A stretch of DNA of 64,000 nt, taken from contig CANFLL010000001.1 of the NCBI GenBank assembly GCA_947447825.1, positions 124,001-188,000 on the forward strand, read 5' to 3'. Source of the stretch: Chitinophagaceae bacterium. GTDB lineage: Bacteria; Bacteroidota; Bacteroidia; Chitinophagales; Chitinophagaceae. Positions 12,231-52,028 of the stretch are shown here, in pieces. The notes under the pieces are model-generated. The model did no database searches, was not told the origin of the DNA, and was given only the letters and a program-made list of their open reading frames with translations. The translations under genes and the position numbers were made by a program. How positions within the stretch are numbered: the stretch's first letter is position 1; the number at the start of each line of letters is the position of its first letter.

Positions 12231-12440
12231 ATTTATTCACCTGAGTCAGTCCACGACTCACCTGAGTCGTGGACTGACTCAGGTGAGTCGTCGACTCGCT
12301 CAACTGAGTCCTTGTCTGACTCAAGTGAGTCGTCGACAGACTCAGGTGAATCTTTTCCTGACTCAGGTGAGTCGTGGACTGACTCAGGTGAACCTTTCGC
12401 TGACTCAAGTGAATATATGCGTGATTCAGTTGAATAAATG
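12231..12440. repeat. Tandem array A, ten 21-bp palindromic units
   Basis: Cores of the type GACTCAGGTGAGTC recur with centres at 12240, 12261, 12282, 12303, 12324, 12345, 12366, 12387, 12408 and 12429, an exact 21-bp spacing. Left-hand units carry a CC centre and right-hand ones GG or variants. Because 21 is a multiple of three the array is open in several frames and mimics a heptapeptide-repeat protein (DSGESWT type), but no gene is implied. Confidence 0.9.
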
Positions 12441-28353: not shown

Positions 28354-28793
28354 TATAGAGGAACAAAAAGTATGAAACTATTGTTGCGTATTGCTTTACC
28401 TAAAAGCAGTATTCAACCTAAAAAAGGAGCGCAAAGTTAGTAATTTATAATGGATATTTTACAAGTGATAAAACGCAATTACCACACTAGTAAATTATAT
28501 GGAGTAGAAAATCACCTCAAATGAGTCATAATCTCAGATAATGCCGCATTAATCTATAGCCGATTATTTTAAATTTTAGCTTATTTCTACTTATATATAC
28601 TCGCATTCTTTAAAAGCAAAAGACTCTTTTGCTTCAGAATCACCCACTTTTCCGTTGCCATCTTTTACCATACCTAAAAAACAATATAAGGTTCAAGATT
28701 AAAGCCGCCCTTTCGTTTTTTTTCACAAGATTTAAACCAATTGGTGATTGATTTTTTTTAAATAATTTAGCTAGATTAATGAATTAAAAGAGT
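28354..28793. other. Intergenic region between the restriction gene and korA
   Basis: About 440 bp of AT-rich sequence with no supportable gene, RNA or repeat. It contains the korA promoter region. Confidence 0.4.
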
Positions 28794-29918
28794 TTACTCC
28801 TCTTCATCTTCTTCAAGGCTTACATAATTAAACTCTACTTTACTTTGAATTAATATTTCATCAAGAATATTTGTGAGATGTCCCAATTTAATTGCGGAAA
28901 CAAAATGACTTTTCAGTATTGGAATGTTTATTATTTCCTCGATACATCCCATGTATTTTTCAATTATTGAATCAATCGAATAAGATTTGGCTGCATTATC
29001 CCTGATTTTCTTTTTTAAATCATCAATTCCTTCGTCAGATTTTACAACAAATGTTATTGGGTATTTCTGAATTTTATCAATATCTAAGAAGTATTTTTTG
29101 AAGTCTAAAGTTTCAGTTACTTGAAAGAACCTTCCAAGTGGCTTCATTACAAAATCTATTCCGCCATCATTTGCATTAGTTCTTCCAGTTTTATACAGCC
29201 TTAGTTTCTCAACATTGAGCTTATCAATTTCATACCCCCAGATAATCATCTGATTATCATAATAATACTTCAGTATTGCATAACTTACTATCTCAAACAA
29301 TCGTGCATCGACTTTAAACTCAAGCAGCCCAAATACAAAACTTTCAACACTTTCAGGAGAAGTCTTGCCAATTACTTGAAGCTCTTCGCAACTCTTTACA
29401 AAACGTTGAAAAGAATCTTGTTTTGTTTTAGAATATTCATCAATAATCTCAATTATAGCTTCTGCAAGGTTGAACTCCTCGTTCTCAACTTTTACTTTGA
29501 GCAAATTTTCATTTATCCAATAACGATTAGTTTCCAGATTTCGGAGTATTGGAATAAAATCAGTACTAGGAAAATACTTTTGAAACTCGGCATTCATCCT
29601 GTTATTCAAAGCATGGTTTTGTAGCTTTCTTCCAAATGGCAATTTCTTAAATCTTTTTGAAAGTTTATTAAACAATGAACCTTCATATTTAGGATAACCA
29701 TCAGTTTTATTAAACCCATTTGCCAAATAATCTTCTATTATCACATATATTGCATACAAATTTGCAAAACTAGACCTTGATTTTGACCCTTTATTGGCAG
29801 AGCGGGTCTTTTCATTTATGTATTGAATTAATTGGCTTTTCTCAAATATTGTTACACTAGTATCCCCAAAATTCTTAAGGAGAATACTTCTAATATTGTT
29901 TGTGAATGTATTCTCCAT
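28794..29918 (-). CDS. Putative type II restriction endonuclease paired with the methylase
   Basis: The 374-aa protein is not recognised as a family member by itself. It follows the DNA methylase by 13 bp, the usual order of a type II restriction-modification operon. A candidate nuclease core lies at about residues 258-275: TNANDGGIDFVM followed by RFFQVTE, giving Asp-x10-Gln-x-Thr, an imperfect form of the PD-(D/E)xK pattern. The N-terminal half is basic and helical (SANKGSKSRSSFANLYAIY). If it shares the methylase site it would cut ATGCAT. The acidic tail ends in EEDEEE. Alternatives: a nicking or modification-dependent nuclease, or a decayed partner. Confidence 0.6.
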   Translation of the reverse strand: MENTFTNNIRSILLKNFGDTSVTIFEKSQLIQYINEKTRSANKGSKSRSSFANLYAIYVIIEDYLANGFNKTDGYPKYEGSLFNKLSKRFKKLPFGRKLQNHALNNRMNAEFQKYFPSTDFIPILRNLETNRYWINENLLKVKVENEEFNLAEAIIEIIDEYSKTKQDSFQRFVKSCEELQVIGKTSPESVESFVFGLLEFKVDARLFEIVSYAILKYYYDNQMIIWGYEIDKLNVEKLRLYKTGRTNANDGGIDFVMKPLGRFFQVTETLDFKKYFLDIDKIQKYPITFVVKSDEGIDDLKKKIRDNAAKSYSIDSIIEKYMGCIEEIINIPILKSHFVSAIKLGHLTNILDEILIQSKVEFNYVSLEEDEEE

Positions 29919-29931
29919 TTTGTTTATTAAG

Positions 29932-30789
29932 CTACAGTGAGTTCATTGTTATGGCTAACTTTTCAGTTTCAAAAGTTCTTATTTCTTTCTCTAATTTTTC
30001 TCCTTTAAACTCCGTTGCTAATTGCAACCTCCTCAAACCAATTTTAACGTATTCGTCCTGCAATTCTATTCCAATACACCTTCTATCAAGTTCTTTTGCT
30101 ACAAAGCAAGTTGTGAAAGTTCCAGAAAAAGGATCCATTACCAGATCGCCTACATTTGAACTCGCTTTTATTATCCTATCTAATAAGGCAATGGGCTTTT
30201 GCGTGGGATGATTTTCATATTCATCCATCCTGTAACGCACCCTCGCAAATTCCCAAACATTGCCTGGCACTTTTTCGGCATTATAAACCGTAGGAACAGC
30301 TTTTCTATAATCAATTAATTTCCTTTTTGCACCAGTTTTTGCCTCAACTAATATATCATTAGTATTAAAGGTGTAGTTGTTTTTATCTTTAACACAATAC
30401 AGGATTGGCTCATACATTGAACCATAATATTTTTTGGCCTGAACGCCCGAACTATCGTAATACCAAACCAACCGTGATAAAATTGTTAGTTTATTTCTAA
30501 GATAAATATCAAAATATGGCATAAACTGGGTGGCAGTCATTACATAAAAACTACCATTAGGCTTTAATTTTTTAATACATAAATCCAACCATTGATAACA
30601 CCAATTCAAATAAGCCTCCTCAGAAGACCATTTATCTAAGTGTCCACTAAAATTTTTACCTATATTATAGGGAGGGTCAGCAAAAATTAAATCTACGGAT
30701 TCGTCTTCCACAAAATTCAACATCTCCAAGGCATCTCCTTGCATTATTTTATGTTTCTCATTACCAAAAGTCCCCATACTCTTTACCAT
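29932..30789 (-). CDS. YhdJ-like DNA adenine methyltransferase
   Basis: The 285-aa protein has beta-class order: the catalytic motif IV DPPYNIGKNF (near residues 39-48) precedes the AdoMet motif I DPFSGTFTT near 240. Stretches such as YDSSGVQAKKYYGSMYEPIL, NYTF, ILVEAKTG, KVPGNVW and DEYENHPTQKP match my memory of E. coli YhdJ, an N6-adenine methylase for ATGCAT. Specificity here is inferred from that resemblance. It is the first gene of a two-gene unit with a putative nuclease, so it probably protects host sites. The frame starts at ATG 30789; a second ATG four codons on is also possible. Confidence 0.9.
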   Translation of the reverse strand: MVKSMGTFGNEKHKIMQGDALEMLNFVEDESVDLIFADPPYNIGKNFSGHLDKWSSEEAYLNWCYQWLDLCIKKLKPNGSFYVMTATQFMPYFDIYLRNKLTILSRLVWYYDSSGVQAKKYYGSMYEPILYCVKDKNNYTFNTNDILVEAKTGAKRKLIDYRKAVPTVYNAEKVPGNVWEFARVRYRMDEYENHPTQKPIALLDRIIKASSNVGDLVMDPFSGTFTTCFVAKELDRRCIGIELQDEYVKIGLRRLQLATEFKGEKLEKEIRTFETEKLAITMNSL

Positions 30790-31206
30790 TACCTTACAAT
30801 ACTACTTCTTTTAAAGGATTTGTACATCATTAAGATGTATAGACTGTTTGAAAGTTTTTTATTTAGAAGAAATAAATTATACCCTAACTTCAAATTATAT
30901 CGAATATAGTCAGGTATAGATCTTTTAAAAATCCATCATCCGCAACTATGTGTATAACCTTATTTGATGATTATAACGATTTATAGTTCGCTACCCCCTA
31001 ATTTTAATATAGATAACAAAAACGGTGTTTAGCTGTGTAAGTCGGCAAGCATTACAAGTATAATTATCCTCATGGTTTATGGTTGTTTGAAATATCAGGA
31101 CAACTAGACACATCGAATTTCAAGAGATTGCTTTAGGAAACATCATAAAGCTTTTCTCATCGTTCAAAACCTTCTTCTGAACGAATATTACCACAAAAAG
31201 GGCTTC
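30790..31206. other. Non-coding stretch before array B
   Basis: No gene is supported between the methylase start and the repeat array. The region contains the methylase promoter; no box could be assigned with confidence. Confidence 0.4.
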
Positions 31207-31395
31207 CCTAGAAGTTTTGGAACAATCCCTAGAAGTTTTGGAACAATCCCCAGAAGTTCTGGAACAATCCCCAGAAGATCTGGAACATCCCCCGAAGGTT
31301 CTGGAACATCCCCCAGAAGATCTGGAACATCCCCTATAAGTTTTGGAACAATCCCTAGAAGTTCTGGAACAATCCCTAGGAGTTCTGGAACATCT
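31207..31395. repeat. Tandem array B, nine 21-bp palindromic units
   Basis: Nine contiguous 21-bp units carry the core CCAGAAGTTCTGG or variants CCAGAAGATCTGG and CTAGAAGTTTTGG, followed by AACAATC or AACATCC. The core is a 13-base palindrome. The array ends 69 bp before the start of the 217-aa unknown gene. Open frames across it (cysteine-rich heptads on the minus strand) are artefacts of the repeat. Confidence 0.92.
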
Positions 31396-31464
31396 TGCAA
31401 GGACGGAATTGTTACCCATTTTTATTTTTTAAACAATTTATTTTACTTTCTAAATTATTATTTT

Positions 31465-32118
31465 ATGTCAAAGAATCATGATTGGATACCGCATCCAATG
31501 GGAGATTTTAAAGTTTTTGCTGACAATTTTTGTTCGGAAGCCCACACAAATCAAGTATTGTGGCTACTGATTCTTTTGGAGGTAACTACCCTGCTGGCAA
31601 AGCTTGGAATTTTTAATGGTTATTATGCCATTTCGTCCATCCCCAAAGCGCATACGCAGATAGATATTGATAACACCAATAAGGCACGGGCTGTGCTGGA
31701 ACCTTTGATAAGAACCATGGGAATAGATAGGATGAAGGGAAATGCATTGATGACTGATGGTGACAGAACACGCTGTGGTGTGGTAAATGATAGCGGCACA
31801 CGCACATCGGCACCCCAAGCTGGTAGTGGGCCAGTAGTAGTGGAAACAAAGGTGGGCAGATTGGTTATTCATCTTGCATATACTACAGCCCCAGATGGTC
31901 AGAATGGTGTTATAACTAGGTTTGGGTTTTATGCTGAAGGTGCAACCCCTCCAGAGGAAATAGATTGTACGCAAACGGTAGTTCTTAATAATTTAGGTGG
32001 CAATGTTGCTTTCCCAGAAACCAGATATGGTAAACACTTTGTAGGCTATTCACGCTACATCAATACCCGCAAGGAGGAAGGAAATGCTGCTACCGTATTT
32101 TATGGTATCGTAAACTAG
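31465..32118 (+). CDS. Unknown protein with N-terminal DWIP motif, flanked by 21-bp arrays
   Basis: The 217-aa protein has no signal peptide. It starts MSKNHDWIPHPMGDFKVF, has a helical region to about residue 95, then TTSA-like linker sequence (GTRTSAPQAGSGPVVV) and a C-terminal beta-rich half ending GKHFVGYSRYINTRKEEGNA, reminiscent of an Fn3-like W-N-x-x-G-x-x-G pattern. I recall uncharacterised Bacteroidota proteins with the same DWIP start and similar tail, but no function. Array B lies 69 bp upstream and array C begins about 170 bp downstream, with an intrinsic terminator between. Whether the protein acts on the arrays is unknown. Confidence 0.8.
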   Translation: MSKNHDWIPHPMGDFKVFADNFCSEAHTNQVLWLLILLEVTTLLAKLGIFNGYYAISSIPKAHTQIDIDNTNKARAVLEPLIRTMGIDRMKGNALMTDGDRTRCGVVNDSGTRTSAPQAGSGPVVVETKVGRLVIHLAYTTAPDGQNGVITRFGFYAEGATPPEEIDCTQTVVLNNLGGNVAFPETRYGKHFVGYSRYINTRKEEGNAATVFYGIVN

Positions 32119-32197
32119 TAGAGGGTTTACGTTGTACGTTTTAAGTTATACGTTTTCCGTTTATTAAGTAGGGATATTTGTTTTTGATTGATAAGAA

Positions 32198-32236
32198 AAG
32201 GGACTGTTTCATTACATTGAGACAGTCCCTTTATCC
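32198..32236 (+). terminator. Intrinsic terminator after the DWIP gene
   Basis: AAGGGACTGTTTC pairs with GAGACAGTCCCTT (one mismatch) around an 8-base loop, followed by TATCCTTTATAT. It starts 80 bp after the stop. Confidence 0.7.
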
Positions 32237-32287
32237 TTTATATCCTTTTGGATAGACTATGTGCGTGGGGGCAATAAGAAAAGAATG

Positions 32288-32885
32288 GTTGCTGGTTGCA
32301 AGATACAGGTTACTAGTTGCTGGATACAAGTTACTAGTTGCAGGATACAAGTTACTAGTTTCAGGTTTCTGGTTGCTAGTTGCTGATTACAAGTACTAGT
32401 TTCAATTAATTTGTAACACAAATCCAGTAACCTGAAACCAGTATCCAGAAACCTGAAACCAGCATCTATTATCCTAAAACCAGTATCCAGTAACCTGAAA
32501 CCAGTATCTAGTATCCTGAAACCAGTATCCAGAAACCTGAAACCAGCTTCCAGTAACCTGAAACCAGTATCTAGTATCCTGAAACCAGTATCCAGAAACC
32601 AGAAACCAGTATCTAGTAACCTGAAACCAGTATCTAGTAACCTGAAACTAGTATCTAGTAACCTGAAACCAGTATCTAGTATCCTGAAACCAGTATCTAG
32701 TAACCTGAAACTAGTATCTAGTAACCTGAAACCAGTATCTAGTATCCTGAAACCAGTATCTAGTATCCTGAAACCAGTATCTAGTAACCTGAAACCTGCA
32801 TCTAGTATCCTGAAACCAGCTTCCAGTAACCTGAAACCTGCATCTAGTATCCTGAAACTAGTATCTAGTAACCTGAAACCAGTAT
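32288..32885. repeat. Tandem array C, about 27 units of 21 bp in two orientations
   Basis: Five units of type GTTACTAGTTGCAGG... (32288-32392) plus a partial unit are followed after a 16-bp gap by 22 contiguous units of type CTAGTAACCTGAAACCAG (32424-32885). The left group resembles the reverse complement of the right group (shared GTTACTAG), so the whole is an imperfect large inverted repeat. Units differ mainly by C/T and A/T changes. The last unit ends 4 bp before the stop codon of the LacI gene. Confidence 0.93.
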
Positions 32886-32889
32886 CGAA

Positions 32890-33918
32890 TTACTTCGAAG
32901 TATTAATCATTTTAGTAGAAGACTCTCTTATTATCAGTTTAGGGCGAAGTACTATTTCTTCATTAGTCATATCCTTATCGCTGTTCATCATTTCGATAAA
33001 CATTTTAGCAGCAGTTTTTCCCAACTCGAATGCGGGCATCTCAACCGAAGAAATAGTTGGGGTAACAAGCCTAGTGGTGGGGTCATTATTCATGCCCACT
33101 AGGCCAATATCGTTTGGCATTGTTAGTTTCTTTTCCTTAATGGCCAGCATGGCACCAATAGCCATCTTATCGGCTATGGCAAAAATGGCATCGGGGCGAC
33201 TGCGCATTACCAAAAGTTCTTTTGTGGCAAAATAGGCATAGTCCTGATTAAAGTCGCAATAAATAATCAGGTTCTTATCCACCTTCATTCCATGCTCTTT
33301 CAATGCTTTTAGGTAGCCTTCTTTTCTGTTATTACTAAGCTCTAGGCTTTCAGGTCCACAAAGGATGGCAATTTTTTTATACCCTTGTTCTATTAAATGT
33401 TTGGTGGCCAAATAGCCAGCTTCTTCGTTATCAATCCGCACTTTTGGCGCTTTCATTCCCGAAGCAATCCGATCAAAAAGAACCATGGGCTTCTTCTTTT
33501 CTTGTAGCTTCTTAAAATGATCGATCATATTAGTTTCCCCCGATTGAGAAATGATAAAACCATCCACCAAGCTATCCATTAATCTTTTAGTGTTCACAAT
33601 TTCTCTACCATAACTCTCATTACTTTGGCAAACCATAACGGTATATCCTGCTTCCAGAGCCATTTCGTCGATGCCTTTCACCATTGTGGAAACCACATAA
33701 TCGAGATTTGGGATGATAACCCCAATGGTGTGCGTCTGTTTCTTTAATAAATGTAGTGCAAGCTGATTAGGTTGGTAATTGAGCTGTTCGGCAAGTTCCA
33801 TTACAGCTTTTCGTGTTTCAATTTTTACATCATGTGTGTTTCTTAGTGCCCTAGAAACGGTGGAAGTTGAAATGTTAAGTGTGCGTGCTATATCTTTTAT
33901 TGTAGCTTGTCTTTCCAT
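32890..33918 (-). CDS. LacI-family transcriptional regulator
   Basis: The 342-aa protein has the LacI helix-turn-helix at residues 5-27 (TIKDIARTLNISTSTVSRAL) with hinge YQPNQLALHL, and a periplasmic-binding-like sensor domain from about 62 (IGVIIPNLDYVVSTMVKGI) to 335. It is divergent from the KdgF-like cupin/sulfatase genes and separated by about 540 bp, so local control of the carbohydrate locus is likely. The inducer is unknown; a uronate or its breakdown product would fit. Its stop codon is only 4 bp from repeat array C. Confidence 0.93.
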   Translation of the reverse strand: MERQATIKDIARTLNISTSTVSRALRNTHDVKIETRKAVMELAEQLNYQPNQLALHLLKKQTHTIGVIIPNLDYVVSTMVKGIDEMALEAGYTVMVCQSNESYGREIVNTKRLMDSLVDGFIISQSGETNMIDHFKKLQEKKKPMVLFDRIASGMKAPKVRIDNEEAGYLATKHLIEQGYKKIAILCGPESLELSNNRKEGYLKALKEHGMKVDKNLIIYCDFNQDYAYFATKELLVMRSRPDAIFAIADKMAIGAMLAIKEKKLTMPNDIGLVGMNNDPTTRLVTPTISSVEMPAFELGKTAAKMFIEMMNSDKDMTNEEIVLRPKLIIRESSTKMINTSK

Positions 33919-42193: not shown

Positions 42194-42352
42194 CGAGACC
42201 TCGGATACGATAAACGAGACCTCGGATGCGACAACCGAGACCTCGGATACGACAACCGAGACCTCGGATGCGACAACCGAGACCTCGGATACGACAAAAG
42301 AGACCTCGGATACGATAAAAGAGACCTCAAATATGACATCCGAAACCTAGGT
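42194..42352. repeat. Tandem array D, eight 21-bp palindromic units
   Basis: Units of CGAGACCTCGGATACGACAA type repeat every 21 bp; the palindrome ATCCGAGACCTCGGAT sits at each unit junction. The last two units are degenerate (AGAGACCTCAAATATG, CGAAACCTAGG). It lies within the carbohydrate locus, 31 bp before sulfatase 2, and may influence transcription or message structure there. Confidence 0.92.
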
Positions 42353-51627: not shown

Positions 51628-52028
51628 TAATCTCCTGTTTTGTTTTCTGCTTTCAAAACAGACACTTAGTGATAATTCTAAAATCCAGCATGAATTGGAC
51701 TCGTTTCATCCTAGAATTTGGAAATCTAGTATGAATCGGGGTCAGTTCACCCTAGAATTCGGAAATCTAGCATGAATCGGAATCGGTTCACTCTAGAATT
51801 CGGAAATCTAGCATGAATCGGAACCATTTCACTCTAGCATTCGGAAATCTGGAATGAATTAGAGTCGATTCATCTCAGATTTCGAAAATCTGGGGTGCTA
51901 CACATAAGCGGCAAAGAAATCAATTGATTAGTTGTGCTGTAAGAAATAGAACTTGTTTAAAACAAAACAGCGATTGAAGTATTAAAACTCCAACCGCCAT
52001 TAAGCATCACTACGTGGGGTGTGAATGA
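51628..52028. other. Intergenic region between two converging genes, containing array E
   Basis: After the protease stop, CTGTTTTG (51635) and CAAAACAG (51654) form a short hairpin without a T-run, a weak terminator candidate. Array E fills 51685-51896. Nothing further is supported before the AraC stop. Confidence 0.45.
51685..51896. repeat. Tandem array E, five units of 41 bp with two palindromes each
   Basis: Units beginning CTAGCATGAATCGG recur at 51685, 51726, 51767, 51808 and 51849, exactly 41 bp apart, then fade. Each unit has two dyads: TGAAT...TTCA around a variable centre, and CTAGA...TCTAG around ATTCGGAAA. Two dyads per 41 bp gives a mean spacing close to that of the 21-bp arrays. 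Confidence 0.9.

Follow-up and report, generated by a model that had tools for sequence, protein, structure and literature searches.

The DWIP gene, which encodes a protein of 217 amino acids, lies in a 64,000-nucleotide stretch of the genome of a Chitinophagaceae bacterium from a little-known freshwater group (hereafter the window, whose coordinates are used throughout), on a 226-kb contig and beside genes of chromosomal type. Two tandem arrays of 21-bp units, B and C, bracket the gene, and the initial annotation had suggested that the protein might bind, make or be controlled by both. The features of the locus are:

28554–32166, unstranded: segment without counterpart in the close relative G155 (blastn with L242; right end approximate)
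28794–29918, minus strand: type II restriction enzyme, inside the G155-absent segment (PADLOC REase_II, E 7.6e-148)
29932–30789, minus strand: type II DNA methyltransferase, inside the G155-absent segment (PADLOC MTase_II, E 2.9e-138; Pfam N6_N4_Mtase, E 2.1e-59)
30950–31179, plus strand: conserved 5' element (nhmmer profile of 11 DWIP loci including the window, E 1.2e-23)
31079–31107, plus strand: helix 1 of the 5' element, ends approximate (both-sided changes, 14 sequences; placed by motif)
31130–31151, plus strand: helix 2 of the 5' element (91.2% of cells paired; placed by motif)
31205–31392, unstranded: array B, nine 21-bp units (TRF 21 bp × 9.0, 86% match)
31465–32118, plus strand: DWIP gene, 217 aa (ORF; helical N-terminal half and fibronectin-III-like C-terminal half in the predicted model)
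32197–32232, plus strand: terminator-like hairpin 3' of the DWIP gene (folding z-score −5.8)
32287–32401, unstranded: left block of array C, heptamer class (TRF 21 × 5.5; lag-7 match 0.62)
32422–32886, unstranded: right block of array C, inverted relative to the left (TRF 21 × 22.1; minus-strand matches to the left block)
32890–33918, minus strand: gene for a LacI-family regulator, long-standing neighbour of array C (Pfam LacI, Peripla_BP_3; same place in G155)

The reading frame and the TRF arrays agree with the placement of gene and arrays in the initial annotation, with 72 bases between the end of array B and the ATG and 168 between the stop codon and the start of array C. No further ORF of at least 100 amino acids was found between the arrays by a simple gene caller, leaving the DWIP gene alone there as described, and the two blocks of array C are indeed related in inverted orientation. 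Arrays B and C also have the top TRF scores among period-21 arrays in the window (248 and 699), but they are not its most regular arrays, as had been claimed, since TRF gives a 92% match for an array at 42194–42328. In a simple scan of 30800–33000, the hairpin at 32197–32232 was the sole terminator-like site, where shuffled sequences averaged 1.7.

The predicted model of DWIP (mean pLDDT 88.4) suggests a protein of about 220 amino acids made of an N-terminal helical bundle and a fibronectin-III (FN3)-like domain. In a structure comparison of this model, the C-terminal half (residues 114–217) resembled FN3 with a Z of 10.4 and an rmsd of 2.2 over 94 residues, and Foldseek matched the model to FN3-type domains at E-values of 1.2e-4 to 1e-3. 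By sequence, DWIP has no Pfam FN3 match, and scans of 11 members against Pfam, NCBIfam, PHROGs and PADLOC gave no family above noise and no known DNA-binding domain; nor does DWIP match any transposase family in Pfam. The DWIP profile found up to 24 matches in one genome, fragments included.

The two arrays proved to be of different kinds. Array B matches itself at a lag of 21 bases (0.87), with a lag-7 match of 0.14; array C has a lag-7 match of 0.62 in both blocks, against 0.24–0.28 at lags 6 and 8, and is therefore built on heptamers. A lag-7 match of at least 0.6 occurred in four of 37 period-21 arrays (score at least 100) of the window's own genome, both blocks of array C included. In G155, the intergenic stretch before lacI has short matches to array C units in both orientations (blastn), LacI there is 97% identical, and the site is without a DWIP gene. 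Because this short related stretch exists there without the gene, array C belongs to the 3' end of lacI, and it is longer in the window's genome than in G155. The short form in G155 and the position of array C beyond the terminator-like hairpin led us to discard it as part of the DWIP system: the proposed tie between array C and the DWIP gene is explained instead by the neighbouring lacI, beside which array C is an older, separate heptamer array. Intergenic direct repeats of a heptamer (TAACTGA), with a 7-bp period, have been reported in groups including Bacteroidetes (PMC4679880). Array C resembles the repeats described there in being intergenic, direct and of 7-bp period, and differs from them in its other heptamers, its 21-bp higher order and its two inverted blocks.

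Tandem arrays are a general feature of the window's genome, where TRF found 73 with scores of at least 100 in 862 kb, the intergenic ones mostly of period 21 (36) or 42 (8). Ten locally shuffled stretches of the same genome contained none at this score; the arrays are not a product of chance. Two arrays lying side by side are less striking given that such arrays occur genome-wide. Two further genomes of the genus had four arrays in 110 kb and seven in 200 kb (score at least 100), and G152, which has one DWIP fragment, had two 21n arrays in a small sample of 80 kb. Among genomes with no DWIP match, no array scored at least 100 in three family genomes (100 kb each) or at least 90 in two genus genomes (39 and 26 kb), all of these being small samples. 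G152 also contains long arrays of 9-bp units, one with 46 copies, and arrays of 47-bp units (L222 3398–4243; L225 13960–15060). Sequence was held in common with at least one other array by 51 of the 67 arrays compared, a set that includes four added gene-linked arrays, heptamer arrays and both blocks of array C. The units of the array at 12242–12414 of the window resemble arrays at five other places in the own-genome sample, and also gene-linked arrays at loci L136 and L140 of other genomes.

This abundance raises the possibility that the arrays beside DWIP genes are bystanders, formed by slippage or template switching in long, weakly constrained intergenic regions in which recently acquired genes sit. 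We regard this as possible, if somewhat unlikely. It would fit the occurrence of arrays genome-wide, in 18–27% of gaps of at least 200 bp regardless of the orientation of the flanking genes, and the differences in arrays between close relatives. It would not by itself lead one to expect an excess of arrays at one gene family over genes with long upstream gaps, and such an excess was found. Scanning GTDB genomes yielded 21 DWIP loci, every one in a metagenome-assembled genome labelled Chitinophagaceae; the scan loci together with the window and its paralogue, minus L056 and L058 (truncated genes at a contig start), gave the 21 DWIP genes that were judged. A 21n array with a score of at least 50 lay within 200 bp upstream of 13 of these 21 genes, compared with six of 239 other genes drawn from 20 loci (all but L002; Fisher 1.6e-12), and of 12 of the 20 that remain without the window's own gene. 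At a score of 100 the counts were 11/21 and 5/239 (Fisher 1.7e-10). Enrichment of arrays near homologues, which the initial annotation had put forward as the check on its idea, is thus clear on the upstream side and weak downstream (3/21 against 5/234, p 0.02), on the understanding that loci within the family are related and the p-values overstate independence.

Within 500 bp upstream, arrays of score 100 were present at 56 of 814 background genes and at 46 of the 304 with a long upstream gap, a background that itself includes members of array-linked families. Against those 46/304, the 11/21 DWIP genes with arrays (within 200 bp; score at least 100 for both) remain in excess (p 1.7e-4), which weakens the candidate explanation of the arrays as mere background. 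The link also recurs in other genera, a second point against bystander arrays. An alignment search found matches in six of 147 family genomes, including four DWIP homologues in three other genera, and all four have a 21n array within 500 bp (scores 87 to 184). Across the superfamily members outside the DWIP core, these four included, arrays were present at 11 of 17 loci at a score of 45 and at 6 of 17 at a score of 100. The 17 were taken from 22 such loci by leaving out L264 (truncated at a contig start), L267 and L269 (MSD members, see below) and L270 and L272 (short fragments); two of them, L263 and L265, are MSD loci as well. The array thus accompanies the DWIP family more often than it does other genes.

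Similar arrangements were found in two further families, MSD and MRI. Both were seeded from genes found beside arrays and searched in 13 genomes of the genus, giving 54 and 48 matches respectively, with loci retrieved for 30 each; L137 was left out of the first 30 (it overlaps L132), and genes with less than 250 bp upstream were dropped from the counts (2/29 for MSD, 3/30 for MRI). An array lay within 500 bp upstream of 24 of 27 MSD genes (17/27 at a score of 100) and 20 of 27 MRI genes (15/27), counts in which some loci are close orthologues. With the seeds removed, the proportions at a score of 100 were 16/26 and 14/26, compared with 56/814 in the background. Another MRI gene (L103/L148) was likewise already known to lie next to an array, of score 97. 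Profile comparison showed MSD to be a homologue of DWIP along its whole length (98.3%) and detected no homology of MRI to either DWIP or MSD; the predicted layout of MRI resembles that of DWIP, with helices followed by an FN3-like domain. DUF6261 (PF19775) is, like DWIP, a Bacteroidota gene family of unknown function with an upstream array in part of its members: arrays of 41 or 42 bp precede four of seven genes in three genomes (two of two in the window's own genome and two of five in two others), in one case some 600 bp ahead of the profile match. A 41/82-bp array between convergent genes at 51674–51891 of the window is similar to an array upstream of a DUF6261 gene (L021 6135–6244).

Most array-bearing DWIP genes have the same order of parts, namely a 5' element with a covarying hairpin, then the array, then the gene. 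The nhmmer profile of the 5' element hit only loci that carry a DWIP gene or a fragment of one, and no solo array sampled from the own genome. Across 14 elements, the two helices had 92.1% of their cells paired, and seven pairs had changed on both sides, six in helix 1 and one in helix 2. The covariation score was 0.376; shuffles gave 0.186 (0 of 500) and sliding no more than 0.137, for helices derived from the very alignment in which they were counted. The number of further pair types was not unusual (51/500 shuffles). The DWIP 5' element may be an RNA or may once have been coding and have decayed. Codon comparison did not support a coding sequence within it, the best synonymous fraction being 0.23, with 0.13–0.18 in the other frames; no known RNA family reached gathering level over the element in 16 sources, and the 26 hits of a lax RNA-family scan of 30800–33000 were all under the family cut-offs. 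The sole gathering-level hit, to Flavo-1 RNA, was at L039 8676–8754 (minus strand), away from the 5' element.

The 5' element of MSD contains a coding micro-ORF of 32–37 amino acids, which lies upstream of the array and ends in QL(Q/N)(K/L)DG at 11 hand-picked loci (L114–L117, L119, L120, L125–L127, L133 and L142). Five of these sequences in frame gave 66 synonymous and 68 non-synonymous codon pairs; in a shifted-frame control on the same five, the ratio was 72:68 in frame, compared with 12:123 and 17:117 out of frame. Over 500 bp, the micro-ORF pattern occurred at 8 of 71 gene-linked loci and at 1 of 818 background genes.

A second DWIP clade of seven loci (L040, L045, L047, L048, L050, L053 and L054) is without the 5' element, and five of its genes have no 21n array in the upstream-side 1.2 kb around the gene; the exceptions are L047, with a weak array (score 65) at 147 bp, and L048, with an array of score 101 at 397 bp. 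L041, whose protein is close to those of clade 1, has neither element nor array. The DWIP protein thus does not need the array, as the five second-clade genes have none in the examined flank. This distribution also speaks against bystander arrays, in that the array of clade 1 lies between a conserved element and the gene, and genes without the element are mostly without arrays. We consider the link of the array with the gene family, and the organisation of element, array and gene as a module, to be well supported. In the second-clade loci L040, L045, L053 and L054, an upstream motif like GGTTCTAATCCA takes the place of the 5' element.

What is kept in the DWIP-linked arrays is their period (21, 42 or 63) and their position, not their sequence. 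Averaged over the sequence ahead of 11 DWIP genes, self-match was 0.49, 0.49 and 0.44 at lags of 21, 42 and 63, compared with 0.23–0.25 at lags of 10, 11, 31 and 32 in the same regions. The genes at L038 and L057 are 90% identical and their 5' elements 91% identical, and their arrays are unrelated, an observation that counts against the downstream protein binding the array simply through its sequence; L144 and L145 have an array unit in common. Together with the clade that lacks arrays, such unrelated arrays next to near-identical genes are the weightiest observations against the cassette's own protein being the one that binds.

Excess dyad symmetry is a feature of the arrays as a class. The mean best stem was 6.0 in each of the DWIP, MSD and MRI families and 4.0–4.3 in shuffled units (p 0.005, 3e-5 and 3e-4 for the three families), with the 12 DWIP loci of this set chosen as clade 1 and hence not usable as a rate. 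By the whole-unit dyad score, four of 37 arrays were singly below p 0.05, and the mean was 12.54 compared with 10.72 in shuffled units; the dyad of array B alone was not significant (p 0.43 for the best stem, 0.91 for the whole-unit score). Stem mismatches read on the gene strand were 67 G-T and 60 A-C (p 0.59), and this lack of a G-T over A-C excess gives no indication of a dyad maintained in an RNA; an RNA-level role for the array stems, which we had considered, is thus unsupported. Solo arrays from the own-genome sample matched four of seven gene-linked arrays of the same genome and eight of 41 from other genomes, one of the eight being from the very close G155, in a comparison from which a lag-7 filter had taken out three of 51 gene-linked arrays of score at least 60.

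These results bear on the layout of type III toxin–antitoxin systems, in which the array would be transcribed to a repeat RNA that restrains the downstream protein. As in ToxIN and its relatives, short tandem repeats lie directly upstream of a single protein gene and unit length is kept while repeat sequences vary between systems (PMC5086642); the 5' element with its covarying hairpin would suit such a layout too. The repeat unit of ToxIN is 34–36 nt in that account, unlike the 21 bp of DWIP-linked arrays, and closely related type III toxins are described there as keeping their repeats (PMC5086642), unlike L038 and L057 with unrelated repeats beside 90% identical genes, although L144 and L145 do share one unit. 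The stems carry no sign of being maintained as RNA, no terminator-like site lies between array B and the gene in the window, solo arrays occur elsewhere in the genome, and the protein, which has no Pfam match, is predicted to be helical and FN3-like. Two features that define type III systems are thus absent, the terminator (scanned in the window only) and the conservation of repeats among close relatives, and we judge a type III system to be very unlikely.

Comparison with relatives suggests that the DWIP cassette moves. Homology between the window and G155 ends at 28553, is weak at 32167–32198 (32 bases, 81%) and is clear again from 32867. In G155 the lacI gene adjoins a gene that we take to be korA, both encoding proteins 97% identical to those of the window; between the two, the window has about 3.6 kb extra, comprising the restriction–modification pair, the 5' element, array B and the DWIP gene. 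The restriction–modification pair (28794–30789) thus also lies inside the stretch absent from G155, adjoining the cassette. No DWIP gene was found beside lacI in eight stretches from other genomes of the genus, two of them about 3 kb long. Insertion in the lineage of the window, rather than loss in G155, is the simpler reading. In the pairs L114/L115, L144/L145 and L038/L057, the DNA match starts at the 5' element and gives out near the stop codon. Longer flanks are common to L041/L057, L042/L044 and L040/L045, as would be expected of orthologous places. In G047 and G153 the cassettes are at opposite ends of one common block. DWIP had no match in phages or plasmids, and the 45 pattern matches in viral contigs included no relative. 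Beside two DWIP cassettes lies an ORF with the string GSFYHIYNRG (L029 12185–12826, plus strand; L044 8640–9281, minus strand; 99% identical), a string that occurs in REP-associated transposases; the L029 copy had no Pfam match.

Such movement could alternatively belong to the array itself, as a selfish, REP-like element spread by an enzyme encoded elsewhere, with the gene as cargo or helper. REP sequences are paired with RAYT proteins, their cognate Y1-type transposases. Like them, the arrays are made of short intergenic repeats that are dispersed, with excess dyad symmetry as a class and some with the sequence of gene-adjacent repeats; the sequence common to solo and gene-linked arrays of the same genome would be expected of such an element, and the ORF beside two cassettes would offer an enzyme. 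Unlike REP sequences, they are tandem, with a 21-bp period and many unrelated sequences, and the linked protein matches no transposase family. The candidate ORF, lacking a Pfam match, is present at two loci only, the 5' element is absent at the sampled solo arrays, and the arrays have neither fixed ends nor a fixed sequence, making a REP-like origin unlikely in our view. Plasmid iterons are repeats bound by a replication initiator on the replicon; in comparison, DWIP has no Pfam or plasmid match, and its copy in the window's genome lies beside chromosomal-type genes.

We tentatively favour, at a probability of roughly 40%, the reading that the window contains a single copy of a Chitinophagaceae cassette that is apparently mobile and present in many copies, and that the array acts through a set of sites in double-stranded DNA. 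The cassette would consist of the conserved 5' element, the 21-bp tandem array and the gene for a protein of about 220 amino acids with predicted helical and FN3-like parts. As double-stranded DNA, the array would present equivalent sites along one face of the helix, spaced by two turns. From binding onward, we infer a mechanism in which a dimeric DNA-binding protein, either the cassette's own product or a host factor, would occupy these sites and control the cassette. Arrays of similar unit that stand alone elsewhere in the genome would be further sites in trans, or remnants, and array units may be replaced quickly by exchange between repeats. We recognised no description of this gene–array arrangement in the open-licence PMC literature. 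A bolder reading, which we hold as rather doubtful, is that of a new Bacteroidota repeat–protein system with mobile cassettes, hypervariable 21-bp dyad arrays, a 5' leader that in one family is the conserved micro-ORF of 32–37 amino acids, a helical-FN3 protein and dispersed arrays of similar unit as sites in trans, possibly engaged in conflict or defence.

The DWIP family marks where intergenic tandem arrays belong in these genomes, and points to a family of apparently mobile genes, 11 of which were scanned without a hit above noise in Pfam, NCBIfam, PHROGs and PADLOC. Conservation of geometry only (period, position and, as a class, dyad symmetry), with the letters left free, offers a testable entry into array function. 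Should the reading as a new repeat–protein system be true, the specificity of a conflict or defence system may be written in the array.
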